From positions 1 to 64,000 of the forward strand of contig JBCCCR010000037.1 of NCBI GenBank assembly GCA_039033415.1: a stretch of DNA of 64,000 nucleotides. Reading direction: 5' to 3'. The position numbers and the translations under genes are program-made. The notes under the pieces were generated by a model. That model worked only from the letters and a program-made list of their open reading frames with translations, was not told where the DNA came from and made no database searches. The stretch comes from Pseudomonadota bacterium (GTDB lineage Bacteria > Pseudomonadota > Gammaproteobacteria > Xanthomonadales > SZUA-38). Positions 1 to 35,509 of this stretch are shown piece after piece; position 1 is the first letter of the stretch, and every line of letters begins with the position of its first letter.

Positions 1-302
1 CCGCAACTTCGGCGACCTCCGGCGTCTCTGAGATGGCGGCCTCAACTTCGGCACATGTCGGCATGAATTGGGTCAGCGCAGCGTCGCCGCCGTGGTGTGG
101 TCGGCAACGGACAGCTAGGAGAGTCGCATAACTCGTTTGCGGACAGCCGCACTGGCTCGAATAGTCGAACTACTGGAAAACAAAAATTTGGTGATAGCGG
201 CGAGGCATCCGAACCACACTGCCTGGGGCTCTGCGCGCTTAATCAGGTATTGGTTAGCCTGCCCGAGGGTAAGATATGTGCGAGCCGCCGGGCGGAAGAC
301 AA
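1..302. other. Window edge without a confident gene
   Basis: I find no convincing gene here. A short reading frame starts at an ATG on the minus strand at 64 and runs off the left edge after about 21 codons. It has no visible Shine-Dalgarno sequence and is too short to identify. A plus-strand frame also reads in from the edge and stops near 130. Either could be the end of a neighbouring gene. Confidence 0.3.
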
Positions 303-330
303 AAAAGTGGGATCCGAAGATCCCACTTTT
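303..330 (-). terminator. Rho-independent terminator of the cold-shock gene
   Basis: This is a perfect 12-bp inverted repeat, AAAAGTGGGATC at 303-314 and its complement at 319-330. Read on the minus strand, the loop is the very stable UUCG tetraloop closed by C-G, and the stem runs into six T residues. It lies about 40 bases beyond the stop of the cold-shock gene. The flanking A and T runs make it usable in both directions. Confidence 0.9.
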
Positions 331-372
331 GCTTTCTGGGAGTCTGGAACTCACGTTCCAGCCCGGATTTGA

Positions 373-579
373 TCAGCAGGGGGAAATATTCTCCGCCTGC
401 GGGCCTTTCTGGCCCTGCGTGACGGTGAATTGAACTCGCTGACCTTCTATGAGTGATCGGTGGCCTTCTCCGGCGATCGCCTTAAAGTGGGCGAATACGT
501 CAGGACCTGATTCTTGCTCGATAAAGCCATAGCCTTTTGCGTCGTTGAACCATTTAACGGTACCGGTAACGGTGGACAT
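373..579 (-). CDS. CspA-family cold-shock protein
   Basis: This 68-residue protein is a single cold-shock domain, an OB-fold that binds single-stranded RNA and DNA and typically melts mRNA structure. The two nucleic-acid-binding motifs are visible: RNP1 as KGYGFI (residues 15-20) and RNP2 as DVFAHF (27-32), after the usual N-terminal VKWFNDAKG. The length is standard for the family. The ATG at 579 is preceded by AGGA. A promoter is proposed at 735-762, which would give a leader of about 150 nt, like the cold-regulated leader of E. coli cspA. A strong terminator follows at 303-330, so the gene looks monocistronic. Which Csp paralogue this is, and whether it is cold-induced, cannot be told from the sequence. 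Confidence 0.96.
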
Positions 580-734
580 AGTGATGTTCCTATCTAAATA
601 AGTTTGAAAATAAAGCCCGAGTGGGCGGATTCGCGTGAAATGCTGAGACTACTTATGAAAACAGGACGAGGTACAACAGACGAGACTTCGAAACAGCGGG
701 CATAAATACTTCGGCAAAACTTCAAGCTACATGA

Positions 735-762
735 AGCATATAGGCCATGGCGCGTTTGTCAA
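735..762 (-). promoter_or_regulatory. Candidate sigma-70 promoter of the cold-shock gene
   Basis: On the minus strand there is an exact TTGACA -35 element (762 to 757), a 16-base spacer, and TATGCT as the -10 element (740 to 735, four of six consensus bases). Transcription would start near 728, leaving about 149 nt of 5' untranslated RNA before the ATG at 579. The predicted start is inferred from spacing only. Confidence 0.6.
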
Positions 763-960
763 TGCGTTTGTTTTACAGATCATGGAATTCGTCGGTGCCG
801 GAGTCATTCAGCAAATCGCTCGTTGCCTGATGGTAATGAGGGAGACTGAACCACCCCGGGTTTTCCGGAGACTGTTTCGTGAGAGATTGGCTAAATCGTG
901 TCCGAAAAAACGGCACCCCATTTCACAGCTAGGCAATCATGAGTCTGCAGTTCGCAACCA
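763..960. other. Intergenic region, nothing recognised
   Basis: Apart from the cold-shock promoter at its left edge, I see no gene, RNA fold or clear signal here. A short plus-strand frame at 731-967 has no ribosome binding site and no protein-like composition. Confidence 0.4.
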
Positions 961-1022
961 TTCGTAATCCCCTTGGGGACGCCATAAATAAACCCGCTTC
1001 CGCGGGTTTTTTTATGGCGTCC
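961..1022 (+). repeat. tRNA-Glu 3'-end-like fragment with long palindromic hairpin
   Basis: Bases 961-984 resemble the T-loop, T-stem, acceptor strand and CCA end of bacterial tRNA-Glu (compare TTCGAATCCCC and GGGGACGCCA), but no cloverleaf precedes them. The end overlaps a 21-bp hairpin, 977-997 paired with 1002-1022 around a TTCC loop, with one mismatch. The hairpin includes an AAACCCGC/GCGGGTTT stem and a T-run, so it can act as a terminator. On the minus strand the segment 1045-1015 again looks like a tRNA 3' end, giving two such ends facing each other. A tRNA 3' end followed by a terminator is typical of integration-site remnants, but no integrase is present. Confidence 0.6.
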
Positions 1023-1160
1023 GCAAGGGTCTTGGTTCGAACCCCAGGTTCGACAAGTTGCGCCAGCAACTTGGACGCCGTAGCGAAGCGAAGGCGCCCC
1101 GCAGGGGTGAGCAGGCGACACTTCGCCTGCTAATCAATCCCCTTGGGTCTCCCCTAAGAG
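1023..1160. repeat. Structured repeat, copy 1
   Basis: Three hairpins lie in a row: CAAGTTGC (1054-1061) with GCAACTTG (1066-1073), CCCC/GGGG around GCA (1097-1107), and GCAGGCGA (1111-1118) with TCGCCTGC (1123-1130). A T-arm-like segment precedes them (about 1031-1050), and the copy ends with the sequence CCCCTTGGGTCTCCC. The same order recurs at 1198-1345 and three times at 10919-11170, with base changes that keep the stems paired. Short frames reading through it look like artefacts. Confidence 0.75.
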
Positions 1161-1175
1161 AGTCTCCTAATTTGA

Positions 1176-1196
1176 CCGCTTCAGCGGGCTTTTTTA
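1176..1196 (+). terminator. Short GC hairpin with T-run between repeat copies
   Basis: CCGC (1176-1179) pairs with GCGG (1184-1187) around TTCA, followed by GC and seven T residues. It occupies the place of the longer palindrome at 977-1022 and looks like a decayed version of it. It may be a weak terminator or simply part of the repeat. Confidence 0.4.
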
Positions 1197-1197
1197 A

Positions 1198-1345
1198 TGG
1201 CGCCCGCAAGGGTCTTGATACGAACCCCACGGTTCGACAAATTGCCGGCAGGCAATTTGGACGCCGAGCAAAGCGAGGCGCCCCGCAGGGGTAAGCAAAC
1301 GATACTTCGTTTGCCAAACAATCCCCTTGGGTCTCCCTCAAGAGT
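1198..1345. repeat. Structured repeat, copy 2
   Basis: This copy has the same three-hairpin order as copy 1: CAAATTGCC (1238-1246) with GGCAATTTG (1251-1259), CCCC/GGGG around 1281-1291, and GCAAACGA (1295-1302) with TCGTTTGC (1307-1314). Relative to copy 1, stem 1 has a G-C to A-T pair exchange and stem 3 has two paired exchanges. It ends with CCCCTTGGGTCTCCC. A degenerate further fragment of the leading part lies at about 1387-1432. Confidence 0.75.
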
Positions 1346-1500
1346 AACCCCCTCAACCGACTGGGCAGCGGGCCTTTTTTATAGTGCCGCCAAGAGTCTT
1401 AGTTCCAACGCCTGGTTCGACACGTTGCGCTAACGCCTTTTTTCGACGACGCGCACCGAGTGCCTCTGCCGCGATCACAGCACGGTGATATATTTCGCGT
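1346..1500. repeat. Degenerate repeat fragment upstream of the sigma gene
   Basis: The stretch CAACCGACTGGGCAGCGGGC, followed by a T-run and a GCCGCCAAGAGTCTTAG segment, matches the right flank of the repeat cluster near 11,200 and the start of the other copies. It sits directly upstream of the sigma factor gene. I recognise no promoter in it. Confidence 0.4.
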
Positions 1501-2046
1501 ATGCATCGTGCGGATCTAACGATCACGGACATCCTAAATGAATCCGAGGACGGCGATGAAGCCGTGCGCGCCGCGTTTCCGCTCATTTACAAAGCGCTGG
1601 AGGATCTCGCGTCGGGATATCTGCGCAAAGAGCGCGAGGGGCACACGCTGCAAACCGCCGACTTGGTTCATGAAGTGTTCCTGAAGATGGCGGGCCGACC
1701 AAGGATGCAGTTAAGGGGGAGAAAACACTTCCTGGTCGTGGCAGCGGCCGCAATGCGCCGGTACCTCGTCGATTATGCGCGGAGAAAGAACGCTTCGAAA
1801 CGCGATGTTCGACACGCAGCGCTGTTCCTGAAGGATACGGAGGATGACCCTGTCGATCTGCTTGCGCTTGATGCGGCTCTGACGCGTCTCGGGAAGATTG
1901 ATCAGCGTCAGGCGCAGATGGTCGAGCTACGGTTTTTTGGGGGGGCAAAAGCCGAAGATATCGCGGAGATATTCGACATCTCGACGGCAACGCTGTCCCG
2001 GGAGTGGTGGGTCACCAAGCTTTGGCTTCGCAGGGAACTGTCTTGA
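1501..2046 (+). CDS. ECF-type RNA polymerase sigma factor (Sigma70_ECF/TIGR02999-like)
   Basis: This 181-residue protein is an ECF sigma factor of the group usually found beside Ser/Thr kinases. Region 2 spans about residues 22-100, with LQTADLVHEVFLKM at 50-63 and MRRYLVDYARRKNASKR at 85-101. Region 4 spans about 122-180, with a helix-turn-helix around DIAEIFDISTATLSRE and the ending WLRREL. No anti-sigma gene is adjacent. The next gene is a Ser/Thr kinase whose probable TTG start overlaps this stop by four bases, so the two are likely made together. By analogy with the family, the kinase may control sigma activity, but that is inference. The ATG at 1501 has no strong Shine-Dalgarno sequence. 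A second pair of the same type is at 61,204. Confidence 0.9.
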   Translation: MHRADLTITDILNESEDGDEAVRAAFPLIYKALEDLASGYLRKEREGHTLQTADLVHEVFLKMAGRPRMQLRGRKHFLVVAAAAMRRYLVDYARRKNASKRDVRHAALFLKDTEDDPVDLLALDAALTRLGKIDQRQAQMVELRFFGGAKAEDIAEIFDISTATLSREWWVTKLWLRRELS

Positions 2047-4937
2047 CGACAGACTCCGTCCTGTTTCAGCGAGCAAAGGCGATTCTGCTGGATCTTTATG
2101 ATGTGAGCGAGGCGGCACTGGAGCGAACAGCTGTCGATGCCTGTAACGGAGACTCGCAGCTGGAAGCGGAAGTCGTTTCACTACTTGCGGGGATAAATAC
2201 GAGCGATTCCGTTGTAGAAGGCTCGGTCCTGAGTGTCGTCAGGACCCTGAAGGAGGCGCACTCCGAGATCCCTCAGATCGAAGGTTTCACGGATCTCCGG
2301 GAGATCGGCCGGGGCGGCATGGGGGTCGTGTATCGCGGACGATCGACTGGACTGATTGAGCGGCCGGTTGCTATTAAGCGAATTGCCGGGCTGCAAAGCG
2401 AACGTGATCGGGTTCGTTTCGACGAAGAATGTGAGTCGCTCGCCCGCTTGAGTCATCCGCATATCGCAACGGTTTATCAGTCGGGAGTCGACGACAACCG
2501 CCACCCTTACGTGGCGATGGAGTGGGTCGATGGTGCTCCCATCACGGAGTACTGTGACGCTGAACAATTGACGGTTTCGCAGCGTATTCAGCTCGCCATT
2601 CAGGTATGTGATGCGATTTCTTATGCGCACGAACGCGGGATACTGCATCGGGATATCAAACCTCCGAATGTTCTGGTGACCGAGCAGAGCGGTAAGCCGC
2701 TGGTAAAAGTCATCGATTTTGGCATCGCATCTCGGCTGGATACCCCGGGTGGGCAAACCGCTTCTACCAGCCTGGGCACCCCCGGCTACGTAAGCCCCGA
2801 GTTGATAACCAGCAACGGCAGCCTCGTTCCCGACACGAGGAGCGACGTTTACTCGCTCGGTGTTCTGCTGTACGAGCTCGTTGCTGGAAGCCGCCCCTTC
2901 GGCGATGTGGACCCGAGCCAGGCCTGGGCTCAAATCACTTCGCAATCGCCGCCTTCACTCTACGCGTGTGTTTCTCGATGCGGTGCTCGTGGGCAGGAAC
3001 ATATCGCCGCGGCTCGCGGCGGTAGTACCGGAGAGCTAAGTAAGAGCACTCGGGGAGACATCAGCCTGATCGCCGAGAAGGCGGCGGCGCTAAATCCTGC
3101 CGACCGGTATGGAAGCGCGGATGCCTTGCGCCGAGATCTAATCGCGCACACCAAGCACATGCCTATTGCTGCCCGCGATTTGACAGGAACCTATGTCGCC
3201 GGACGGTTTCTCCGACGCCACTGGCCCGTGGCTGTCACCCTTGGACTATTCGTCTTAGCGTTGGCTGGCGGCGTCATAGCCGCATCGCTACAGGCGCAGA
3301 AAGCCAACCGTCAGGCAGAACTTGCCCGCTCGGCGAAAGCGGAATCCGACCGGGTGTCTCAGTTTCTGGTCGACGTGTTCCGCACTGCCGACCCACAAAC
3401 CACCAATCCGCGAAGTGTCAATGCCGCCGATATCCTCAGTGCCGGACGCGATAAGGCAGAAAGCGAATTGGCCGACAACCCTCGAGTATTGGCACGGGTA
3501 CTTCGTCTGGTCGGTAATATCTCTGCCAACCTTGGTGACCTTGAGGAGGCGCAATCGCTCCTAGAACAATCGGCCGACATTCAGCGCAAAAACGCATCCG
3601 TTGGCGATAGGCCCGGTAAGGACCTCGCCGATACGCTCTTCGCGCTGGGGCGAGTGCAGAGCCTCCGGGCTAAGGATTCAGCGGCGATTGCGACCCTGGA
3701 AGCGGCACGCGATATGTATTCAGCAGTCGTCCCGCAAGATCTTCCGGGGATCGCTAACGTCAACAATACGCTGGCGAATTTGTATTGGAAAAGGTGGGAT
3801 CTTGAGCGGGCGGCGCAGTTGCACCGTCGAACCCTATCGCTGCGTCAGGAGTTGCTGGGCAACCGGCATCTGGATGTGTCGGTTTCCATGATCAACCTGG
3901 CTGCGGTTTTGCTGACACAAAGCAGCCATGCGCCTTCTCAGGTCGAAGCACAAAACCTGCTGGAGGAAGCGCTCGTCATTATGCGCGAGCAGCTGCCTGA
4001 GGAGCATCTGTGGATCAAGCAGGCGCAAGCAAATCTCGCACTCACGCTGTTCCGGCAGGGTGATTCTGAGCGCGGTCTTGACGTGCTTCACTCGTTGCTG
4101 AATGAACAGGTGGAGCGGTTGGGTGAAACTCACCAGGACGTCATCCCGACGCTTACCAATATCGGTGACCATCTACTTACCTCGGGTCGGGCTGACGAGG
4201 CGCTAGTGTACTTTCGCCGGGCCAATGCCGCCGCAGGCGCGGTTTGGGACGAGCGGCACCCCGATTTTGCCCGGACGCTGTCCCGCCTCGGGGGCGCGCA
4301 TTTCCGGATGGGAAATCTGGAGGACGCCCGGCAACACTACGAAAAAACCCGGACCATTTACGCCAACCACTATGGCGTAGATCACCTCCAGACCATGCTC
4401 AGTGAGCAGCGACTGGCGCGACTGGAACTGGCACAAGGACAGTATGGAGAAGCGGAGGCTCGTCTCGAGCGCGCTCGTAAGTTCTTTGCGGAACAACCGG
4501 AATCCATTGTGTTTCGACTGCTCTCGGTCGATCGCGATCGGCTGGCGTTGCGGCTAGCAACGCAAACCGACACGACCGAATTTCGTGATCTGATAGATCG
4601 CCACCTCAAGGCGGATCTACATGACTGGCGTCACCTCTACAGCGCGTACCTTTTGTCCGCGCGAGCCGCCTACGCCAGCAATGATATCGAGCGGTTGAAG
4701 GAGCACGTGGCAGCGCTGCTGCGTGTGGAGGAGGGGCGACAGGTTCCGGACCACCTGAAGCTCGAGCGAGAATCCCTTCAGGCCGCGCTGAGTCAAAGGC
4801 GCGGCGATCTGGAAACGATGAATTCTGCCGTCGAAGCCATCAATAGCCAGTTGGAGAGAGCAGGATCGACGATTCCGTTCGCGACTCGTCAATCAGTCCA
4901 GTCACTGTTGGCGACCTTGAGAACCCGGCAACCTTGA
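2043..4937 (+). CDS. Membrane Ser/Thr protein kinase with C-terminal TPR domain
   Basis: This protein of about 964 residues (counted from a TTG at 2043) has a cytoplasmic PknB-type kinase domain, one membrane segment and a long TPR region. Kinase motifs are intact: glycine loop GRGGMG (about 89-94), VAIK lysine (about 111), HRDIKPPN (202-209), DFG (225-227) and GTPGYVSPE. A hydrophobic stretch at about 394-414 follows, then repeated helical pairs typical of TPR_10/TPR_12 to the C-terminus. I chose the TTG because AGGGA lies seven bases upstream and it gives a TTGA overlap with the sigma stop. An ATG at 2004 in the same frame is possible but would overlap the sigma gene by 43 bases. The kinase probably acts on, or with, the sigma factor; its TPR region may bind a partner. 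No substrate can be named. Confidence 0.92.
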   Translation: MTTDSVLFQRAKAILLDLYDVSEAALERTAVDACNGDSQLEAEVVSLLAGINTSDSVVEGSVLSVVRTLKEAHSEIPQIEGFTDLREIGRGGMGVVYRGRSTGLIERPVAIKRIAGLQSERDRVRFDEECESLARLSHPHIATVYQSGVDDNRHPYVAMEWVDGAPITEYCDAEQLTVSQRIQLAIQVCDAISYAHERGILHRDIKPPNVLVTEQSGKPLVKVIDFGIASRLDTPGGQTASTSLGTPGYVSPELITSNGSLVPDTRSDVYSLGVLLYELVAGSRPFGDVDPSQAWAQITSQSPPSLYACVSRCGARGQEHIAAARGGSTGELSKSTRGDISLIAEKAAALNPADRYGSADALRRDLIAHTKHMPIAARDLTGTYVAGRFLRRHWPVAVTLGLFVLALAGGVIAASLQAQKANRQAELARSAKAESDRVSQFLVDVFRTADPQTTNPRSVNAADILSAGRDKAESELADNPRVLARVLRLVGNISANLGDLEEAQSLLEQSADIQRKNASVGDRPGKDLADTLFALGRVQSLRAKDSAAIATLEAARDMYSAVVPQDLPGIANVNNTLANLYWKRWDLERAAQLHRRTLSLRQELLGNRHLDVSVSMINLAAVLLTQSSHAPSQVEAQNLLEEALVIMREQLPEEHLWIKQAQANLALTLFRQGDSERGLDVLHSLLNEQVERLGETHQDVIPTLTNIGDHLLTSGRADEALVYFRRANAAAGAVWDERHPDFARTLSRLGGAHFRMGNLEDARQHYEKTRTIYANHYGVDHLQTMLSEQRLARLELAQGQYGEAEARLERARKFFAEQPESIVFRLLSVDRDRLALRLATQTDTTEFRDLIDRHLKADLHDWRHLYSAYLLSARAAYASNDIERLKEHVAALLRVEEGRQVPDHLKLERESLQAALSQRRGDLETMNSAVEAINSQLERAGSTIPFATRQSVQSLLATLRTRQP

Positions 4938-5114
4938 GCACTCAGCAACCAAACTCCTGAGTCTGGATGGGTATATGCTCGCCCTAGATGTTCTCGATAC
5001 TCGCAAACTGCGGCTGTTCGAACCATTTCGTGAACCAGCTGAAGCATTTTTATCTTCGCTCTCGCCTCAACAGTTCGTTGTCCCCATCAAAAGTGTTGCG
5101 ACGAATCGGCGTCA

Positions 5115-8100
5115 TCACCAGCGAATCGTGACGTTGTCGCCATGCAGCGATTGCCATTCGCCCTTCGTAATCGCGCCGTCCTCGAATCGGACCAACTGAA
5201 TCTGTAGGCCCATGGCGGTTATTCGCCCATACGTCTCAACGTAAGCGGGCGTGGTGGGGTGCTTCGCGCGCATAACAAGCGTGGGTGCGGCTCTCTCAAG
5301 CGCTCGCTCCTCCAGAGAAGCCTTGCTGAGCACGATAGACCGGGACTTGAACGACCCGTTAATCACCGGTGTTTCAAATCCGTCGACGAACAGTACATCC
5401 GGATCCTGTCCAACGTTCACCCGGAAGGTTTGGCTGGCCGCTGTGTCGACACCGCCGTTTGCGGTGCCTCCGTTGTCCGTGACCGTGACGGCGAAAGTCG
5501 CCGATCCGTTGCTGCCCGAAAGCACTAAGGACAATCGCCCGTTGTCGTCGACGGTGATCAGATCGACAACGCCGTCGGGATCACTGACCGTGGCCACGTC
5601 GATACGCTGCACCAGTTGGTCTATTTCGTTTGGACCTAGGGTGGTGACGTTGACGAAGCCATCGACAACCTGCACACCTGCGGTTCCGGCGCTGAAGCTC
5701 TGATCGCCGAGCAGTGAAAACTCAGGTGGATCATTGACCGGTGTAACGGCTAGTCGAGCCGTCGCCATGGCGGGTGTCCCCGCATCATCCTCGATCGAGT
5801 AGCTGAGGCTGGCCTCTCCAAAGAAATCGTCCAGGGGCGTCACCCGAACGGTGTCGTCGGCCGGATTGCTTGTGCCCCCGTCATCGACGGTCGCCAGCAC
5901 TCCGGCAATGGCGCTGACTTGTGTGATGCGGATGCTATCCGTGGAATCACCCGCTCCCGCGCTATCGTTTGCAAGGAGCGAGCTTGCAGGAATGGCCTGC
6001 GTATCTGCACCCTCTAAGACCGGCGTTAACAGGTCGTCCGAGGCAGTGGGTGCATCGTCGATGTTGCTAACTGTGATGGTGATTGTTGCTGCGTCGGTGT
6101 TTCCGAACCCGTCCGTAACGGTGTAGAGCACGCTCGCGACGCCGCTGGTGTTTGCAGGCGGTGTGTAGTCGAACGAGCCGTCGGCGTTGAGCGTCATCAT
6201 GCCGCCGATGCCCTGGGCAACGAACGTTCCGGAAGAGTTGACGGAAAGTGGGTTGCTTTCAGGATCGGTATCGTTGTCGAGTACGCCGGGAGCGCTCACC
6301 GACAGCGCTCCATTCTCGTCGCTGGTGTAATCATCGTCGACGGCAACCGGGGGCTGATTGTCCAGTCCAACGCGAACGGTAACCGTGCCCGTCGCCTGCG
6401 CGGTACCGTCTGTGATGTCGTAAGTGAACACGTCCAGTCCACTCACATTGGCCGGTGGTGTGTAATTGAATGAACCATCACTATCTGCCGTCAAGGTGCC
6501 GCCCGGGCCGGAGACCGGCAACACGCTCGCAGCTACGACGGTAAGCGTATCGCTTGTATCAACGTCAGTATCGTTGGCGAGCAGGCCGGATACCGAATCG
6601 ACGACCAGGGCGGTGTTCTGATCCGTTGTGTAGCCATCGTCGTTAGCGAACGGGGCGTCGTTAGCGCCGTCAACGCGGATAAAGCCGGCACCTGTCGCCG
6701 TCAGTCCACCCGGATCCTCAACCTCATAGGAGAAGCTGACGGCCCGGATTTCGCCATCGTCCAGGTCCTCAAAGGCTCCTTGCGGGTCGAAGACGAACAC
6801 GTCCGACGGGGTCGCCTCAACCCGTCCGGAAACAGGCTGTTCCGTGATCCGAAATGTGAGAACAGAATCATCGATGTCGCTAGCGATGAAAGTACCTGAC
6901 GTGGTGGTGTCCTCGGCCGCGGAGAGCGCGGGCAGACCGGGTGTTGTTGGCGCATCGTTCACGCCTTCGACGTTAACCGTGATCGTATTGCTGGCGCTTG
7001 CGTTCTGTGCGTCCGTCGCGGTGAAGTCAGCCGTTACCATGGCAGATTCTCCTTCACCCAGCGACTGGAACTCAGGTTGCGCAGCGTCGAACGAAAAGGT
7101 CTGGTCGTTGTTATTCGTGAAGCGGGCATCGACCGCGTCGAAAACGACGGTCAAGGTATCGGTTGCGTCTGCATCGCTTACCGGGAACCCGAACGTCCCC
7201 GAGGCATCTTCGTCGATGGTCACGCTGAGTGGTGCCGCAACGGGATTATCGTTGGCGCCGAGCACATCGATGATGAGAGCCGTAGTCGCTTCTGCGAATC
7301 CATCCGTAGTGGTGTAATCCACAGCCTGCGAAGACGTTTCTCCGGCAGCCAAAAACTCAAAGTCGCCGGTGCCGTCGAAAAAGAAGGTGCCGTCCTGGTT
7401 GAGTGTCACTTCGGCCCCTGACGAGAAAATAAAGGACTCGCTGGTGTTGGTATCGGTGATTGGAGAACTCGCCAGTGCACTGACGGAAATCGCGCCGCCG
7501 TCTTCGTCATCAACGGCGTCCGTGTCGTTGGCGAGAACGCCGTTATCGTCCTCTGTCGCGGTAGCACCTCCGTCGCTATCCGTATTGGTTCGTGCGGCGG
7601 TATCTTCGCTGACGGAATAGCGATCACCCAGCGCCACGGGCGCGTCGTTGATGATCTCCACTGCACCGATATCGCAATCACCGCCCGCAGCACCATCTGC
7701 GTCCATCGGGCGCGCCATTCCGCGCTGATCGGTGCTCGTACAGCTAGCTGAGGCGTCTACAAGTACGGACCCACTCTGCGGAAGGATGGTGGGCGTATCG
7801 CCGCCGTTGTCGGCCAGCACGCCCAGGTTGATGGCCTCCAGCGTGGCGGTGGTTGCACCGCTGCAATTGGTGTCGGTCGAGATAACGTCGGTTAGCGTAC
7901 CCAATCCATTCAGATTGCAATCGCCGCCGTCGCCGGCGATCACGCTGTTGGTGATGGTCAGCGGAATTGGTCCCCCACCGAAGGCGTACGCGAAGATGCT
8001 TCCGCCCTGGGTCGCCGTATTGGAAAAGAAGGTCGCGTCGTTGATGCGCAGATCGCCGCCGTAAAAATATAAGGTGCCGCCGAAGTCAGCCGCCTGGTTT

Positions 8101-10283
8101 CCGGTAAGGGTTACATTGGACAACGACACCGTATCGCCGTCGTCCATGAAAGTAATCCCTCCAGCGAATGCAGAGTTGTCGTTAAACGTCGAGTTAGAGA
8201 CCGTGAGTTCATCGTTACTCACGTAGAGCACGCCGCTAGTGCGACCGTAGTTGTCGGAGAACTGGCTGCCGTCGACGCTGACCCGGGCTCCGCTATTGGC
8301 ACCGATTGCACCGCCCCGACGCCGAGCGTTGTTGTCCGTCATGGAGACGCCGCTTAAAGTGAGATACCCCCCAGAGACCATGACAGAGCCGCCGCGAGCG
8401 GCTGCACCTGTCCCGTCAGGCCCGTCCGCACAGCCGTTGGTCAATGTAAGGTTAGAGAGCGACACCGTCGCGCCCGAAACATTGAGATGTCGGAATTCAC
8501 CCGCGTCAGTGCTGTCGTTGAGATTGCAGGTCACCGAGGAATCCCGGGTGATCGTAACCTCGCTGCCGACGATGGTTGTGTCGGAGGCGAGATCCAAAGA
8601 CCCTTGCGTCAAGGTGATTGTGCCACCCTCATCGAACACACGCTGGTCGAACGTCACCGTCGACACGTCAGCGTTGGACTCGGCGGCGAGGACGGCATCG
8701 CGCAGCGTGCACCCGAACCCGGTGTTGCATACGCCGTCGCCATCGTCGGTGATTTCGTTGACCACGAAGTCGCTCCCGCTCTGGGCCGAATACTCGAACG
8801 CGCCTGCATCGCAGGCCGCGCCCGCCGGGCGTGCCACGCCGCGCTGGTCGGATTCACCCAGACAGCCGAAGCCAGCCGCGTCATGGGCGCTGGAGGCGGG
8901 GTTGATGGCGTGGGTCGGCGTCGGCCCGCCGTTGTCCTGCAGCGTGCCCAACGCCAGGTCGGTGGTCGTGGTGAGGGTTGCCGCGCCGCAGGTGCTGTCG
9001 GTGGCCACGTTGTTATCGACAACAAAGACCGTGTTTGCACGAAGGGTGCAAAGATCGCCGCTGCTGGCCGAAAACAGGTTTCCTGAGGCGGTGAAGGTCA
9101 CCACATTGGACGTGAAGGGAGAGCCTCTAAACGCCGATGCGTAGCTGCCGAAGTTTGCCGCAAACGTTGAGTCGGTCACGTCGATCGTTCCGACTCCGTA
9201 GGTAGAGATGGCCGCTCTGCCGCCAGAGTTACCGCTGACGGTAGATCGCGAAATGGTTAGCGGGAAATAGCTGCCCACTCCGTTGGTGTAGATCATGCCG
9301 TAGCCGCCACTACCGGTTGCCTGGTTGCCATTGAGCGTGCTGCCTTCAATGGTGACGCTGGAAGTTAGTGCGTATATCGCGCCGGCGTTGCCTGCGCGGT
9401 TATCCGAGAGCACGCTGTCTTCCAGCGTCATGGAGGTGCCCTCCAAAAACACTGCGCCTGCGTCCTTGTTCGCAGACGCGACGCTTCCGGTGACCTCGCT
9501 ATCCACCACTCGAATACTGCCACCAGTTGTAAAAATGCCGCCGGCGCCATCGCGGCCAGAAAGGTCGATACGATTGCCGGAAACGACCGAACCCTGGACC
9601 AGCAGATCGGCGTCTCGAGTGTAGATACCCGCCCCCGACTCTGATGTTGCGGCCGAGCTTTGAACCTGGTTGTTGGACACCGTGCTGCTTGAAACCGTGA
9701 GCGTTCCATCCCGAAGGGCAACCCCACCCGCCTGAGCGTTGTATCCTGAATTTTCCAGCAGGCGCACCGACTCCAGGGTTAGCGTGGTGTTGTCTGCGGC
9801 AATGGCGTGGGCGCTGACGCGCAGTCCGGCATTCGCATCGCTGTAGGTCTCGCAACCATAGCGCGCAGTCATTGACTGGAGCGTCACCGTGCTCGATGAG
9901 ATCGCCAGGAGCCCGAAGCGTCCCGAGTTCTGTGTTTCGGTGCAGTCTACGCTGATATCGCGCTCGATAATCGCGTCGTTACCGGCAAGGGTGATATCAG
10001 AACTGATCAACGGCAGCCGTTCTTGCAGAGTGATGGTCTGCGAGGGGGGCAACTCGACGGTGTCTGCGCCTGAGCCGGGTGCACAGTCCGCGTGCGTCGC
10101 GGTGTCGTCATTGGCGTTGTCGATGGCCTCGGCTAGCGAACACAGGCCGTCAGCCGCATCGGTTCCGGAGGCGTTGGTGGTCACCGTAATGGTTGCAGCC
10201 TGGGCCGCGGTGCCCACGGTGCCGAGAGCCGCCAAAATGCTCTGAGCGAGAAGGGATTGTCTAAGTGCTTTGCGCTGATTCAT
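5115..10283 (-). CDS. Giant exported protein: CSLREA/beta-helix and cadherin-like repeats
   Basis: This 1722-residue protein has a Sec signal peptide ending near AAQA (about residue 29). A CSLREA-type segment follows (GLCSLAEAIDNAN, about 46-58), then beta-helix repeats rich in S/T/N/G and a choice-of-anchor-Q-like end (SDQRGVARPAGAACDAGAFEY, about 475-500). A second CSLREA segment (GCTLRDAVLAA, about 524) and a second helix end with DQRGMARP at about 854. From about 880 to 1620 there are tandem cadherin/VCBS-like domains with DGSFDYTPPANTSG motifs. FVDGFE occurs at 1632-1637, followed by an 85-residue tail. Such proteins are large secreted or surface adhesins or binding proteins; the exact role is unknown. 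The ATG at 10283 has GGAGT upstream. The gene converges on the sigma-kinase pair. Confidence 0.9.
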   Translation of the reverse strand: MNQRKALRQSLLAQSILAALGTVGTAAQAATITVTTNASGTDAADGLCSLAEAIDNANDDTATHADCAPGSGADTVELPPSQTITLQERLPLISSDITLAGNDAIIERDISVDCTETQNSGRFGLLAISSSTVTLQSMTARYGCETYSDANAGLRVSAHAIAADNTTLTLESVRLLENSGYNAQAGGVALRDGTLTVSSSTVSNNQVQSSAATSESGAGIYTRDADLLVQGSVVSGNRIDLSGRDGAGGIFTTGGSIRVVDSEVTGSVASANKDAGAVFLEGTSMTLEDSVLSDNRAGNAGAIYALTSSVTIEGSTLNGNQATGSGGYGMIYTNGVGSYFPLTISRSTVSGNSGGRAAISTYGVGTIDVTDSTFAANFGSYASAFRGSPFTSNVVTFTASGNLFSASSGDLCTLRANTVFVVDNNVATDSTCGAATLTTTTDLALGTLQDNGGPTPTHAINPASSAHDAAGFGCLGESDQRGVARPAGAACDAGAFEYSAQSGSDFVVNEITDDGDGVCNTGFGCTLRDAVLAAESNADVSTVTFDQRVFDEGGTITLTQGSLDLASDTTIVGSEVTITRDSSVTCNLNDSTDAGEFRHLNVSGATVSLSNLTLTNGCADGPDGTGAAARGGSVMVSGGYLTLSGVSMTDNNARRRGGAIGANSGARVSVDGSQFSDNYGRTSGVLYVSNDELTVSNSTFNDNSAFAGGITFMDDGDTVSLSNVTLTGNQAADFGGTLYFYGGDLRINDATFFSNTATQGGSIFAYAFGGGPIPLTITNSVIAGDGGDCNLNGLGTLTDVISTDTNCSGATTATLEAINLGVLADNGGDTPTILPQSGSVLVDASASCTSTDQRGMARPMDADGAAGGDCDIGAVEIINDAPVALGDRYSVSEDTAARTNTDSDGGATATEDDNGVLANDTDAVDDEDGGAISVSALASSPITDTNTSESFIFSSGAEVTLNQDGTFFFDGTGDFEFLAAGETSSQAVDYTTTDGFAEATTALIIDVLGANDNPVAAPLSVTIDEDASGTFGFPVSDADATDTLTVVFDAVDARFTNNNDQTFSFDAAQPEFQSLGEGESAMVTADFTATDAQNASASNTITVNVEGVNDAPTTPGLPALSAAEDTTTSGTFIASDIDDSVLTFRITEQPVSGRVEATPSDVFVFDPQGAFEDLDDGEIRAVSFSYEVEDPGGLTATGAGFIRVDGANDAPFANDDGYTTDQNTALVVDSVSGLLANDTDVDTSDTLTVVAASVLPVSGPGGTLTADSDGSFNYTPPANVSGLDVFTYDITDGTAQATGTVTVRVGLDNQPPVAVDDDYTSDENGALSVSAPGVLDNDTDPESNPLSVNSSGTFVAQGIGGMMTLNADGSFDYTPPANTSGVASVLYTVTDGFGNTDAATITITVSNIDDAPTASDDLLTPVLEGADTQAIPASSLLANDSAGAGDSTDSIRITQVSAIAGVLATVDDGGTSNPADDTVRVTPLDDFFGEASLSYSIEDDAGTPAMATARLAVTPVNDPPEFSLLGDQSFSAGTAGVQVVDGFVNVTTLGPNEIDQLVQRIDVATVSDPDGVVDLITVDDNGRLSLVLSGSNGSATFAVTVTDNGGTANGGVDTAASQTFRVNVGQDPDVLFVDGFETPVINGSFKSRSIVLSKASLEERALERAAPTLVMRAKHPTTPAYVETYGRITAMGLQIQLVRFEDGAITKGEWQSLHGDNVTIRW

Positions 10284-10880
10284 TCAGTGTTACTCCGTCC
10301 GCGATTGACAGAGAGTCCGTTATCCGCAGAGGTTTCACTTGAGATCAGGCCTGATTGTGATGTCGTAGACCGGCTAGCAAGGCATGCTTTGGCAATCGTG
10401 ATCAAAACGCTCTTCATGAGTTTGTCCATTTCGTATGTGGATGTCCGCGCACCGGCTAGACTCTCCCATGGCGCGAAACCCCACTAAAAGTGAGTCCCAT
10501 GTCTATATGGCGAATTTCGCGAATTTTTTTGTCAACTTTCTTCCGCTACTCGACGACAACCAGGGTATCCCGAGTATCGCCTGAACCTCTGGCCTTATCT
10601 GTGGACTGCTGCTCATGGATTACCATCGGCAGCGATCGCTGTTTGCTGCAAGTCTCGCGTTGGTGCGATCCGCAAGATTAGAAGCAAAGGGAAACACTAG
10701 ATGTTGATCGAGGCCAATCAGAAATCCGCGAGGTGCGAGCTGTTATCCAACAAGGAAGTACATTGCTACGTAACGCCCAACGCACCCCGCTCGCCGAGGA
10801 ACTGCTGAAGCAGTCCGAAGCGTTGGCGCCGGGTTGGCCGCAAACCTACTCAATCACGAGAGAGCACTGCGTAACCATTC
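10284..10880. other. Non-coding stretch with two doubtful small frames
   Basis: No recognisable gene is present. Two small plus-strand frames are worth noting: 10468-10584 (38 codons, with the hydrophobic core MANFANFFVNFLPLL and no clear ribosome binding site) and 10701-10805 (35 codons, preceded by AAGGGA). Neither resembles a family I know. They may be chance frames or relics of decayed genes. The promoter of the giant surface protein should lie in 10,290-10,400, but I cannot single it out. Confidence 0.3.
10468..10584 (+). CDS. Doubtful small ORF, 38 aa
   Basis: This frame runs from the ATG at 10468 to the TGA at 10582-10584. The middle is hydrophobic and aromatic (ANFANFFVNFLPLL), and the ends are polar. 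There is no good Shine-Dalgarno sequence and no known family. It is listed only because the composition is more protein-like than the surroundings. Confidence 0.15.
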   Translation: MARNPTKSESHVYMANFANFFVNFLPLLDDNQGIPSIA

Positions 10881-11240
10881 GCAGTCCCCAAGGGTCTTGG
10901 TACGAATCCCAAGGTTGGACAAATTGCCGGCAGGCAATTTGGACGCCAAGCAAAGCGAGGCGCCCCGCAGGGGTGAGCAAACGATACTTCGTTTGCGAAT
11001 CACTAAGTTGCGCTAGCGACTTGGACGCCGGAGCGAAGCGCAGGCGCCCCGCAGGGGTAAGCAAACGATACTTCGTTTGCGAATAACTAAGTTGCGCTAG
11101 CGACTTGGACGCCGGAGCGAAGCGCAGGCGCCCCGCAGGGGTGAGCAAACGATACTTCGTTTGCGAATCAATCCCCTTGGGTCTCCCCTGAGAATAACCA
11201 CCTCAACCGACTGTGCAACGGGCTCTTTTAATGGCGCCGC
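10881..11240. repeat. Structured repeat cluster with three tandem 84-bp units
   Basis: After a T-arm-like segment (CTTGG, loop, CCAAG, about 10896-10915) come three units of exactly 84 bp: 10919-11002, 11003-11086 and 11087-11170. Units two and three are almost identical; unit one differs mainly in the first stem. Each holds the same three hairpins as the copies at 1023-1345: an inverted repeat around GCTA or GGCA, CCCC-GCA-GGGG, and GCAAACGA-TACT-TCGTTTGC. The cluster ends with CCCCTTGGGTCTCCC and the CAACCGACTG flank, as at 1321-1370. The tandem part looks like recent duplication. Confidence 0.85.
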
Positions 11241-15659: not shown

Positions 15660-18539
15660 GTGGATAACTATTTTATCGGCGGGGATGTCTTCAGGTCTTG
15701 GCGACAAATCACCTTTGTCGTAACGCTAGGCTTGCTCTTTGGGTCTCCGTCCATCGCACAGCCTGAAGGCGGTGAAGTCGTCGAGTCTGCGGTGGTGGAG
15801 GAGGTTGTGGTCACGGGTTCGCGAATTCGTCGCCGTGATCTCAGCTCAGTCAGTCCGCTTATCACGATTGACCGCAGCGAGCTTCAATTCGCCGGGCGGC
15901 CGACCATCGAAGAGGTGCTCAATCGGATGCCGCAGGTGACACCCGACTTTGGCCGGACCTCCAATAATCCGGGAGATGGTACCGCCAGGGTCAATCTGCG
16001 CGGTCTCGGTGCTGGTCGCACGCTGGTGCTGCTCAACGGCCGACGCCTGGCGCCCTCTGGCGTTGGCAGCGCGGTGGACTTAAACAATCTGCCAACGGGA
16101 CTGATCGACCGGGTGGAAGTGATTACGGGCGGCGCGGCGGCGGTCTACGGGGCTGACGCCGTGGCCGGCGTAGTCAACTTTATTACTCGGGATGATTTTC
16201 AGGGCCTGACGATTGAAGGTCAGTACGGGGTTACCGATTCGGGTGATGCGGAAACGCGCGACGTGAGTGTCGCTTATGGGGTGGACCTGAGCGAGGGTCG
16301 CGGACACCTGACGCTGTTTGCCAACGCCATGGAGCGCGACACGCTGCTGGCGGGTGAGCGTGCCTTTACGCAAACAGACTTGGAGGATGATCTGATGGGA
16401 GGTGTCAGGCCCCGTGGGTCGTTTGCAGTTCCCGAGTTGTTACTTTTCGCGCCAGTTGATCTGGGAATTGGCCCGGTTTTCCCCATCTTTGAGCCGGATG
16501 GGAATTTTCGCGCATTCCAGAATCCGGACGATCGCTATAACTTTGCTCCGGTCAATTACCTGCAGACGCCCCTGACGCGGTTCAGCGCTGGTCTGTTTGC
16601 CAATTTTGCGCTAACCACATCCGCCGAAGTCTACGCGGAATTGAGCTTTGCCAACAATCAGTCCGAACAGCAGTTTGCGGCGATCCCTGCGACAGGGGTA
16701 CTGACAACCAATCTGGACAATCCGCTACTGACGCCCGCTACCCGAGCGCTGCTAGCCGAAAACTTCGCGACTGGCGACAATCGCGCCAGCGTTAACTTTG
16801 GGCGTCGGCTCATCGAGGTTGGACAACGGGCGGTCGATCGAGACCGTGACTACTGGCGGACCGTGTTCGGCGTGCGCGGAACAATCTGGGGCGACTGGGG
16901 CTATGACGCATGGTTGGGCTTCACTGATGCTACCGAGCGGGAACTCCTGTTAAACGACGCTTCCCGATCTCGCCTGGCGCAAGGGTTGCTGGTTGATCCG
17001 GCGACCGGCGGTTGCATCGATCCCAGCGGGGGCTGTGTGCCCGTCAACCCGTTTGGTGCCGGCAACATCTCGCCCGAGGCCGCAGACTTTTTGCGTGTCG
17101 GCAACGTGGTCAACACGACGGAACGAACCCAAACGCTGGCAGGGGCGTTCATCACCGGCTCATTGCTTGAAGGGTGGGCGGGGCCGCTTGAGGTGGCTGC
17201 GGGCCTGACCTACCGGCGAGACGAAGGTGACTTTCAAGCTGACGACGTGCTCTCAACCGGGGACACGCTCGGGTTTCGTGGGGAGTCGGCCATCAGCGGA
17301 TCCGAGGACGTGCTCGAGGTTTACGCGGAGGCGGTGCTTCCGCTGCTCGTGGACCAGCCCGGAGCGGATTATCTCGGGCTGGAAGCGGGCCTCCGGTATT
17401 CAGACTATGACCTCGCCGGTGGCCAAACAACGCATAAACTGGGTCTTGAATGGGCGCCGGGCCCAAACTTCCGGCTGCGCGCAATGCAGCAGCGCAGCGT
17501 GCGGGCCCCAAACCTGGCCGAGCTTTTTGCCGAGCAGTTTATCGAGCTGGGGTCTGCCACGAGTGTCAATCAGCCGGACCCCTGCTCCGCGTCCCTTGAT
17601 CCGGTGGGGAACGGGATCGACGACAAATGCCGGCTGCAGGGTCTCACGGATGCTCAGCTGGGCGTTTTTGAGGCGGCTGATATCACGCCGGCCACCTTCA
17701 TTCGCGGGGGTAATCCCGAACTTCAGCCCGAAACGGCCGATACGCTGACGGTAGGGTTCGTGCTGGAGCCTGAACGTTTCGCCGGCTGGTCGCTTGCGGT
17801 GGATTACTTCGAATTTGACGTCGAGGATGCCATTGGCCAAATTGATCCGTTCTCCATCTGCTTCGATTCAACTAATACGGGTAACGTATTTTGTGAAAAC
17901 ATTCAGCGCGGGCCTGACGGCAATATCCGCGTTGTAAGCGAACCGATCAGCAACCGAGGTCTGCTTGAAGTCAATGGGATCGATACCCAGCTTCGCGTTA
18001 GCAAGGAACTGCCTCGGTCGGCGGCGCTGGGGCAGGGCAGTGCGGATCTCACCCTGACTGCTTCCTGGTCTCATCTACTGGAATACCGGCAGCAGGAGAA
18101 CCCGGTTTCTCGAGTGCTGGATTGCGCTGGTCGTTTTGGCAGGCCCTGCTTCGATGGCGAGGTTTTCGACGGTGCGCAGACGTTTCCGGAAAACCGTGTA
18201 ACCACCCAGGCCCACTATCGTGCGGGGCCCTGGTCCGCTCATGTCACCTGGCAGTGGATCGAGGGTACCGACAACGCCGCGCCCTTACGGGTAGCCTTCC
18301 AGAACCTGTCCAATCCGATACAGGGCGTACCGGACGTTGGCAGTAAAAGCTATGTTGACGTCGGTATCGGCTATGCCTTTGGTCGAGGCGCTGAGGTTAG
18401 GCTGAACGTCAACAATCTGTTTGACACCAGCCCGCCGCTCATGGCGGACGCGGTTGTGCAAAACAACACCGATTCTGGTCTCTATGATGTACTAGGCCGT
18501 AGCTTTTTCGCTTCGTTCACGACGCGATTCGGTCAGTAG
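15660..18539 (+). CDS. TonB-dependent outer-membrane receptor
   Basis: This protein of about 959 residues has a signal peptide (hydrophobic core ITFVVTLGLLFGSPSIAQ), a TonB-box-like stretch before EEVVVTGSRIRRRD, a plug domain (NNPGDGTARVNLRGLG, LVLLNGRRLAPSG, DRVEVITGGAAAVYGADAVAG) and a 22-strand-type barrel ending in phenylalanine followed by GQ. The plug belongs to the same subfamily as the receptor at 51,955. I prefer the GTG at 15660, which puts the signal peptide near the N-terminus; an ATG at 15624 would add 12 residues. It imports an unknown substrate with energy from TonB-ExbBD. No TonB genes are nearby. The upstream winged-helix/TPR regulator suggests substrate-dependent control. 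No Fur-like site is seen upstream, which argues mildly against a siderophore role. Confidence 0.93.
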   Translation: MDNYFIGGDVFRSWRQITFVVTLGLLFGSPSIAQPEGGEVVESAVVEEVVVTGSRIRRRDLSSVSPLITIDRSELQFAGRPTIEEVLNRMPQVTPDFGRTSNNPGDGTARVNLRGLGAGRTLVLLNGRRLAPSGVGSAVDLNNLPTGLIDRVEVITGGAAAVYGADAVAGVVNFITRDDFQGLTIEGQYGVTDSGDAETRDVSVAYGVDLSEGRGHLTLFANAMERDTLLAGERAFTQTDLEDDLMGGVRPRGSFAVPELLLFAPVDLGIGPVFPIFEPDGNFRAFQNPDDRYNFAPVNYLQTPLTRFSAGLFANFALTTSAEVYAELSFANNQSEQQFAAIPATGVLTTNLDNPLLTPATRALLAENFATGDNRASVNFGRRLIEVGQRAVDRDRDYWRTVFGVRGTIWGDWGYDAWLGFTDATERELLLNDASRSRLAQGLLVDPATGGCIDPSGGCVPVNPFGAGNISPEAADFLRVGNVVNTTERTQTLAGAFITGSLLEGWAGPLEVAAGLTYRRDEGDFQADDVLSTGDTLGFRGESAISGSEDVLEVYAEAVLPLLVDQPGADYLGLEAGLRYSDYDLAGGQTTHKLGLEWAPGPNFRLRAMQQRSVRAPNLAELFAEQFIELGSATSVNQPDPCSASLDPVGNGIDDKCRLQGLTDAQLGVFEAADITPATFIRGGNPELQPETADTLTVGFVLEPERFAGWSLAVDYFEFDVEDAIGQIDPFSICFDSTNTGNVFCENIQRGPDGNIRVVSEPISNRGLLEVNGIDTQLRVSKELPRSAALGQGSADLTLTASWSHLLEYRQQENPVSRVLDCAGRFGRPCFDGEVFDGAQTFPENRVTTQAHYRAGPWSAHVTWQWIEGTDNAAPLRVAFQNLSNPIQGVPDVGSKSYVDVGIGYAFGRGAEVRLNVNNLFDTSPPLMADAVVQNNTDSGLYDVLGRSFFASFTTRFGQ

Positions 18540-34867: not shown

Positions 34868-35509
34868 ATGAACACCCAGACTGTTCTCCGTGCGGGTTTG
34901 CTCACCGCCGCGCTTTCCCTGGTCAGCGCCGGGGCAATCGCCCAGGTCGGCAACAACCAAAAACTCCTCAACCCCAATCTCGCCTCAGAGTCGGAGCTCG
35001 CTGCGCTTCCCAACGTGTCGGCGGAGTTAGCGAACCAAATTGTGGCCGGTCGGCCCTTCCTCAGTGGCGACGACCTGCACACACTGGTTGCTGCCGAACT
35101 CAGCGAAGCCCAGCTTGAGGAACTCTACGGAGCGATGTTTCTGCCCCTGAACCTCAACACCGCCAGCCGCGCGGTGATCATGCGGGTCGGGGGCATGAGC
35201 CGAAAAATGGCCCACGAGTTCGAGGAGTATCGCCCCTACACCAGTATCGAACAGTTCCGTCGAGAAATGGGGAAATACGTGGATGACGCGGAGGTCGCCA
35301 GGCTCGAGCAGTATGTCTTTGTCCCCATGAATCTCAACGAGTCATCGGACGATCACTTCAAAACAATTCCAGGCATGAGCCGAAAGATGGTCCACGAGTT
35401 TGAGGAGTATCAACCCTATGCGGACATGGGTGAGTTTCGGCGCGAAATCGGCAAGTACGTCGACGAGGCTGAGGTCGCCCGACTCGAGCGGTACGTCACC
35501 TTAGATTGA
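34868..35509 (+). CDS. Exported ComEA-like protein with repeated helix-hairpin-helix modules
   Basis: This 214-residue protein has a signal peptide ending GAIAQ (about residue 26). Three helix-hairpin-helix-like modules follow, the first diverged (NPNLASESELAALPNVSAEL) and the other two clear repeats of each other: NLNTASRAVIMRVGGMSRKM and NLNESSDDHFKTIPGMSRKM, each followed by HEFEEY and (M/I)GKYVD(D/E)AEVARLE. ComEA-type modules bind DNA in competence systems, but no competence genes are nearby and the repeats here are acidic. The ATG at 34868 follows AAGGAA. It shares a Fur-like site with the divergent gene and is followed after 10 bases by a MsrQ-like membrane protein. Role in iron response is inference. 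Confidence 0.83.
   Translation: MNTQTVLRAGLLTAALSLVSAGAIAQVGNNQKLLNPNLASESELAALPNVSAELANQIVAGRPFLSGDDLHTLVAAELSEAQLEELYGAMFLPLNLNTASRAVIMRVGGMSRKMAHEFEEYRPYTSIEQFRREMGKYVDDAEVARLEQYVFVPMNLNESSDDHFKTIPGMSRKMVHEFEEYQPYADMGEFRREIGKYVDEAEVARLERYVTLD

Follow-up and report, generated by a model that had tools for sequence, protein, structure and literature searches.

The hairpin-rich repeats in the 64,000-nucleotide stretch of DNA analyzed here (the window) share a maintained fold, and by architecture and homology we assign them to the tRNA-linked repeats (TLRs). This identity, and the position of the copies in tRNA T-loop or 3'-end copies, go beyond the first-pass annotation of the window, which had described a repeat family with compensatory base changes. 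Passages of PMC8144298, in which the family is named "tRNA-linked repeats," count 22 of them in E. coli, date their first description to 1978, state that 18 to 19 bp of each are identical to the upstream gene's 3' end, and give their function as unknown. According to the same passages, transcription that passes the first terminator yields RrA, RrB, and RrF, which undergo processing, are enriched on Hfq, and have GGA motifs through which CsrA binds them, and the effects of deleting rrA, rrB, and rrF are only modest and partly counterintuitive. The 3'-end copy is suggested there as an RNase E site, 19 E. coli tRNA-type TLRs score below 0.01 for CsrA binding, and an earlier starvation-recovery claim for rtT is reported as retracted. 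Part of PMC4986893 describes RtT RNAs on Northern blots in Actinobacillus pleuropneumoniae.

The window contains five full copies of a four-hairpin element and one truncated copy; three of the full cores form a tandem at 10913-11172 with an 84-nt period. The features are listed below, where G000 is the 6.4-Mb genome of the window (G000:C37:1-64000), G001 is a sister genome from the same genus (with its tRNA-Glu locus, L010, on contig C18), and R1 is a covariance model described further on.

1-960, no strand assigned: putative integrated island end, between the array and its tRNA-Glu gene (match to the G001:C18 locus)
961-984, + strand: tRNA-Glu 3'-end remnant, ~23 nt common to both sides, attR-like (sequence match)
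988-1013, + strand: terminator hairpin with T run (sequence)
1014-1045, + strand: left arm of TLR 1, an inverted tRNA-Glu 3'-end copy (by eye, against the tRNA-Glu of L010)
1048-1138, + strand: TLR 1 core, four hairpins, nearest to the G001 tRNA-Glu copy (91% to L010; 113 bits with R1, a model built with that very core)
1136-1153, + strand: degenerate tRNA-Glu 3'-end copy, AATCCCCTTGGG retained, ~12 nt (sequence)
1174-1195, + strand: second terminator hairpin with T run (sequence, by eye)
1196-1230, + strand: TLR 2 inverted arm (direct repeats D4 and D5)
1231-1322, + strand: TLR 2 core (94.6 bits with R1)
1353-1380, + strand: terminator-like stretch 3' of TLR 2 (sequence, by eye)
about 1381-1440, + strand: TLR 3, truncated after the arm, GGTTCGA, and the start of hairpin 1 (repeats D4, D5, and D8)
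10886-10912, + strand: inverted arm of the second array (repeat comparison)
10913-11001, + strand: TLR core, tandem unit 1 of three (94.6 bits with R1)
11001-11084, + strand: TLR core, tandem unit 2 (aligned row w4; 93.8 bits)
11085-11172, + strand: TLR core, tandem unit 3, followed by AATCCCCTTGGG (96.4 bits with R1)

Each core opens with GGTTCGA, except that tandem units after the first start differently. Four hairpins follow, of which the second has an inner stem and the third is CCCC-GNA-GGGG, and the core closes with GAATCA (in some cores a variant) and then ATCC. The first-pass annotation had placed the copies correctly and had miscounted their hairpins, of which there are four per core, rather than three, plus the outer arm. 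The paired changes that it had noticed in one stem are genuine: this stem is formed by GCAGGCGA/TCGCCTGC in the first window copy, while the remaining four have GCAAACGA/TCGTTTGC. Compared with their own dinucleotide shuffles, three stretches of the window have folding z values of -4.80, -5.71, and -3.78, and the shuffles that fold as well number 0, 0, and 2 per 200, respectively. A protein-coding reading of the repeats was rejected, since the frames at 1012-1356 (minus strand) and 10733-11086 (plus strand) match no Pfam family at an E value of 0.01, which fits the earlier view that such short frames are artefacts. ARAGORN detected no tRNA in the window, Rfam searches at gathering thresholds gave no match in the window and only tRNAs at eight loci, and a blastn search of plasmid and phage collections (E value of 1e-5) gave no match. 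The window also holds other repeats, at 35192-35497 (126 nt at 77%) and at 16074-16183 and 52336-52445 (110 nt at 75%).

The finding is real and the fold is maintained, as the covariance models, the relatives, and the comparison of covariation with shuffles all support. The first alignment comprises 14 copies taken from G000, G001, G003, and G041 and has changes on both sides in 10 of 26 pairs, so the copies are not merely recent duplicates, a concern that had been raised with the original claim. Covariance model R1, built from those 14 copies, recovers matches (E value of ≤0.01) in 96 of the 250 order-level genomes, and the resulting set (128 matches from 95 sources, with 122 distinct rows) is paired in 96.9% of cells and changes on both sides in 25 of 26 pairs. 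Structures slid along this set are only 36 to 43% paired. A second model, R2, was built from matches within the window's own order and contains no E. coli sequence; it gave 102 further matches, outside its training, in 68 class-level sources (94 distinct), in which 24 of 24 pairs are changed on both sides and 97.0% of cells are paired. Although both alignments are fitted to a model, which leans toward structure, and although kin sequences surpass shuffles easily, the margin is very large, with 697 both-side-change cells in the R1 set versus a shuffled mean of 189 and 0 of 500 shuffles as high. The scan of relatives with a covariance model that the annotation had proposed thus finds covariation far above chance. 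At the level of the class, the model has matches in 167 of 369 genomes, with at most the best 11 or the best 17 candidates scored per genome search.

The relationship to the E. coli TLRs was examined in three K-12 stretches. With R2, RrB (the rrnB repeat) scores 55.8 bits (E value of 2.9e-12), the four tyrT RtT repeats score 26 to 30 bits, and there are three weak argVYZQ matches of 13 to 17 bits; R1 ranks the four tyrT repeats first in their stretch (12.9 to 16.8 bits). The core is thus homologous to E. coli TLRs, namely, those of rrnB and tyrT. The Rfam model of RtT (RF00391) aligns at full length, below its threshold, with three units behind tRNA-Tyr at locus L031 (36.2, 36.2, and 33.0 bits), with L011 (38.2 bits), and with L196 (25.4 bits). 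It gives no match at window positions 940-1400 even at an E value of 10, none in the whole window at its cutoff of 45 bits, and none at an E value of 0.5 in L264 (G000:C42:300-1100), where a TLR whose end loops are without GGA lies behind tRNA-Tyr in the window's genome, the position of E. coli RtT. At the level of the family, the repeats are found behind a tRNA or rRNA gene and on its strand; some lie before an intact tRNA, in a truncated copy, and the window's tRNA-Glu is itself on another contig. The 18- to 19-bp identity with the 3' end of the tRNA is seen, by eye, in relatives such as L011, L040, and L043, and only AATCCCCTTGGG of it is kept in the window.

Placement at tRNA genes is a property of most matches. 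The flanking stretch contains a tRNA gene for 193 of 230 matches, on the strand of the match in 191 of the 193. In the 128-match set, a tRNA is present for 106 matches and absent for 22, the nearest tRNA is on the same strand in 105 of the 106, and it is both on that strand and within 350 nt in 99 of the 106; in the 102-match set, 87 have a tRNA and 15 do not, with 86 of the 87 on the same strand and 82 on the same strand within 350 nt. A TTCGA T-loop stands 5' of the core in 172 of 230 matches (91/128 and 81/102). Two arrangements are seen. The first consists of an intact tRNA, a terminator, the inverted tRNA 3' end, GGTTCGA, the core, ATCC, and a direct and often partial copy of the tRNA 3' end. 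The second has the core in a loop of a truncated tRNA, followed by an intact copy of the same tRNA. Loops other than the T-loop are also occupied: six matches in the 128-match set are in the D-loop of tRNA-Ser (GGCTGA), and 4/128 and 2/102 have CTTGA or TCCGA, as in anticodon loops, the clear cases by eye being L060 (tRNA-Ser) and L040:1114 (tRNA-Arg). No T-, D-, or anticodon-loop pattern was found for 27/128 and 19/102 matches, several of which are T-loop or D-loop variants by eye. The csrA gene adjoins tRNA-Ser(gct) and its TLR at G001:C52, G055:C56, G041:C59, and G131:C25; in G055 and G131 the core is in the D-loop of a truncated tRNA-Ser, between csrA and the intact tRNA, and E. coli has a csrA-serV neighborhood likewise.

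The nearest relative of a core is often behind another tRNA in another genome, as for L078 (tRNA-Gln) and L089 (tRNA-Ser), which are 92% identical, and for L051 (tRNA-Ser) and L023 (half a tRNA-Lys, by eye), at 93%; the first window copy and L010, by contrast, share a tRNA-Glu locus. Strong clustering of cores by genome is not seen, with the nearest neighbor outside the core's own locus in the same genome for 9 of 73 cores (shuffled mean, 1.6; maximum, 7; L077, which overlaps L046, was excluded). In 20 regions chosen because their copies looked dispersed or unusual, cores lie away from a tRNA T-loop in all six regions of G621, four of G671, four of G589, and three of G805; one of the G621 stretches has a tRNA-Met 182 nt upstream of the core. 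The copies dispersed off tRNA are near identical in G621, G671, and G589. The 10 frames in the short flanks of the dispersed loci include no common transposase; one has a weak IS110 match (E value of 0.0031, below the cutoff) and one is the end of a glycerol-3-phosphate dehydrogenase. In G621 (L247 to L252), the TLR cores are within a dispersed hairpin-rich repeat, and a weak IS110-like frame lies beside one of the copies scanned. Arms pair with their own partners at -18.7 kcal/mol versus -15.8 kcal/mol for swapped partners, a modest difference, and in 44 of 110 cases the own arm does better than 90% or more of the swaps.

The tRNA-Glu locus of the window can be compared with its intact arrangement in G001, in which the array follows tRNA-Ala and tRNA-Glu. 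Positions 1 to 342 of the G001:C18 query match G000:C15:2548-2889, which carries tRNA-Ala and tRNA-Glu, and positions 320 to 500 match window positions 961-1141, with the last 23 nt of tRNA-Glu common to both G000 pieces. A serine recombinase (PF00239) and an integrase (PF12834/PF12835) lie beside tRNA-Glu on G000:C15 (L242, G000:C15:1-4000). By these matches, the array of the window belongs to tRNA-Glu, from which an island would have split it off. Based on the splitting of the G001-like locus and the recombinase and integrase at tRNA-Glu, window positions 1-960 are most likely the far end of this island, across a contig break, and the window repeats are most likely the old tRNA-Glu trailer region. 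Because positions 10803-10894 resemble 889-977, at the end of the island, the second array may likewise be preceded by an island end. The inverted repeat of the terminator at 988-1013 spans 970-1029 (inverted pair I1, 93% complementary), and a 68-amino-acid frame named by eye as cold-shock-like is at 373-579 on the minus strand. Between the two TLR arrays (1501-10283) are genes for an ECF sigma factor, a kinase-TPR protein, and a 1,722-amino-acid cadherin/Ig-domain protein, possibly cargo between two island ends.

Insertions are also present at two tRNA-Ser genes, ~59.5 kb at tRNA-Ser(gga) in G000 (G000:C15:15840-75632) and ~10 kb at tRNA-Ser(tga) in G001 (G001:C8:20181-30414). In each case the partner genome, which supplied the query, carries a truncated copy with a TLR and a 3' flank without interruption, but a clean reciprocal pattern is contradicted by the TLR-like tail that G001 tRNA-Ser(tga) also has upstream (L195). 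A second tRNA-Glu fragment in G001 (C18, L213:1-420) is broken right after GGTTCGA and is followed by unrelated DNA.

GGA, the motif bound by CsrA, is concentrated in the two end hairpins of the core. By free folding, the 122 distinct cores have GGA in the first apical loop in 89 cases, in the last in 92, and in both in 81, versus 10 of 186 middle loops; the 94 further cores have it in the first loop in 72 cases, in the last in 69, and in both in 64, versus 10 of 158 middle loops. When counted by model positions, GGA is present in hairpin 1 of 98 of the 122 cores and in the last hairpin of 60, and in the two middle hairpins of 1 and 13. Because 13 of the 14 copies used to train R1 are without GGA in their end loops (L012 by eye), this signal is not built into the model. 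The GGA-bearing apical loops expected of a CsrA-sequestering RNA are not found in G000 and G001, where none of the 13 tested copies carries GGA in an end loop; the two G003 copies differ, with GGA in both end loops of one and in neither of the other. We rejected the absence of CsrA as an explanation for the missing GGA, since CsrA is present in all 12 of the genomes tested, G000 included. Across 398 genomes of the phylum, with the TLR and CsrA search sets taken as the same, TLR matches are found in 95 and CsrA in 220: CsrA is in 87 of the 95 TLR genomes and in 133 of the 303 others, which is an odds ratio of 13.9 (Fisher P value of 5e-18, kinship ignored). The eight TLR genomes without a CsrA match (G261, G670, G692, G760, G792, G821, G851, and G872) include three that are <75% complete and five that are ≥93% complete, and the TLR match in G792 is weak (E value of 4.8e-4). 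As judged from the copies compared, the window's branch has kept the fold and lost the GGA. With the GGA lost and the island having apparently cut the array off from its tRNA, the window copies would either be orphaned or serve a purpose other than CsrA, and the latter would have to hold for the E. coli tyrT copies too.

Putting these observations together with the published work on E. coli, we propose the following mechanism for the family. The TLR lies behind the terminator of a tRNA (or 5S) gene and comprises an inverted tRNA 3' end, a T-loop (GGTTCGA) with the four-hairpin core, and a direct copy. RNA polymerase would read through the first terminator into the TLR, as published for E. coli rrnB, and the arms and core, the latter with the covariation observed here, would fold to a compact RNA. 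The copy of the tRNA or 5S 3' end would act as a processing site, as suggested in print for RrB, so that RNA would be released in step with tRNA or rRNA output. In most lineages examined, CsrA would then bind the GGA that the first and last hairpins have in their apical loops, and the TLR RNA would titrate CsrA according to growth rate; CsrA binding is published for RrB, and GGA conservation and CsrA co-occurrence come from this analysis. We lean slightly toward this account of the TLR as a read-through RNA that is released at the tRNA 3'-end copy and titrates CsrA. For the family as a whole, the CsrA decoy has more support than any other mechanism considered; in the window's branch it is unproven. 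The first-pass annotation had not chosen between RNA and DNA. We favor RNA, since the strand is constant with respect to tRNA genes and a related RNA is transcribed in E. coli.

Several other readings of the repeats were weighed against the read-through decoy RNA. A mobile core is possible, if rather doubtful: it would be a small DNA element that targets hairpin loops, especially those of tRNAs, and goes in 3' of (T/C)GA. Its structure would be conserved because a recombinase or transposase acts on the folded strand, and any RNA role would be secondary. The presence of the same core in the T-loop, the tRNA-Ser D-loop, and anticodon loops, the truncated tRNA with a core beside an intact tRNA copy (L012, L014, and L018), the frequent finding of nearest relatives at another kind of tRNA in another genome, the copies dispersed off tRNA, and the tandem of 84-nt cores would all be consistent with such an element. 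However, the 10 flanking frames scanned share no transposase, CsrA explains the end-loop GGA more simply, G000 and G001 retain a core at the same tRNA-Glu locus, and the empty-site comparison found islands and no clean, true empty site. That TLRs serve the termination or 3' processing of tRNA operons (transcript buffering, or RNase E or Rho sites) and not CsrA is unlikely. Such a role would suit the TLR that lies between terminator hairpins, by eye, at window positions 988-1195 and, in passages of PMC8144298, in E. coli rrnB, and it would suit the persistence of GGA-free branches, but it explains neither the restriction of GGA to the end loops nor the truncated-tRNA copies upstream of intact tRNAs. 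We consider it improbable that TLRs are by-products of integrases acting at the tRNA T-loop or 3' end, with the direct repeats as att sites, the arms made by template switching, and the hairpins functionless. This would account for the direct repeats of the tRNA 3' end, for islands at the same tRNA genes in G000 and G001, for the integrase or recombinase genes that adjoin two G000 tRNA genes, tRNA-Glu and tRNA-Ser(gga), and for the G001 tRNA-Glu fragment broken directly after TTCGA; a class-wide homologous core with GGA end loops and the covariation of nearly all pairs are left unexplained by it. The low G-U content of the stems also points toward by-products, but terminator stems are likewise low in G-U.

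The G-U counts bear on the question of RNA or DNA as well. With the outermost pair of helix 4 omitted, the cores have 52 G-U and 24 A-C cells (25 and 27 G-U in the two sets, or 1.0 and 1.4%, with 11 and 13 A-C); with that pair included, they have 142 and 29 (81 and 61 G-U, or 3.1 and 3.0%, with 14 and 15 A-C). The tRNA stems at the same loci have 53 G-U versus 0 A-C; in these 85 tRNAs, G-U makes up 3.7% of acceptor stems and 7.3% of T-stems. By free folding, G-U is 1.7 to 1.9% in the end hairpins of the cores and 2.9 to 3.3% in terminators (38 and 32). On these counts, folded DNA or hairpin-templated correction may be an alternative to RNA. Tentatively, movement and decoy function can be combined: TLR cores could be small, class-wide structured elements that move as units into tRNA T-, D-, and anticodon loops 3' of (T/C)GA, where they disrupt one tRNA copy next to another that stays intact, or that settle behind the terminator, and that have been domesticated in parallel as CsrA decoys following tRNA and rRNA transcription, with the window's branch having lost its CsrA sites and spreading without them. 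The spread of cores may reflect either a moving core or recombination.

The TLRs become, with these results, a class-wide family with a covariation-supported core, and, if tRNA output is indeed linked to CsrA, a global regulator would receive a general input from growth rate. As far as we have searched, the class-wide breadth, the three kinds of tRNA loop, the end-loop GGA, and the co-occurrence with CsrA are new; literature passages drawn mostly from outside subscription papers report TLRs neither in tRNA D- or anticodon loops nor beyond enterics and Pasteurellaceae.

Among known systems, REP/BIME, attC, and other mobile hairpins are repeated hairpins and possible recombinase substrates; unlike REP/BIME and attC, TLRs have a fixed strand and a tRNA context. 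The Aggregatibacter small RNA AaHKsRNA22 (RF02902) aligns along the whole core at window positions 1227-1331 and at full length with L016, a likeness that is only a lead at 21.7 bits (E value of 0.072) and 30.5 bits (E value of 0.051), respectively, versus a threshold of 39.8 bits. The CsrB, CsrC, and RsmX/Y/Z decoys resemble TLRs in having hairpins with GGA apical loops, and L028 scores 37.9 bits against rsmX (threshold, 56), but the TLR unit differs from them in having two GGA hairpins and a tRNA context. RrA, RrB, and RrF, which lie between the dual terminators of E. coli rRNA operons, share with the window copies the core, as detected by R2, and the interterminator position, and RrB, like most relatives of the window copies, has GGA in both end loops (by eye); they differ in lying behind 5S rRNA, and the window copies have no GGA in their end loops. 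The E. coli TLRs, including RtT/rtT of the tyrT operon, have the same position behind a tRNA, inverted arm, GGTTCGA, hairpin core, direct tRNA 3'-end copy, and tandem repetition. Compared with E. coli RtT, the window copies are those of tRNA-Glu, are split off by an island, have a degenerate 3' copy, and form a tandem of 84-nt units that consist of the core only.
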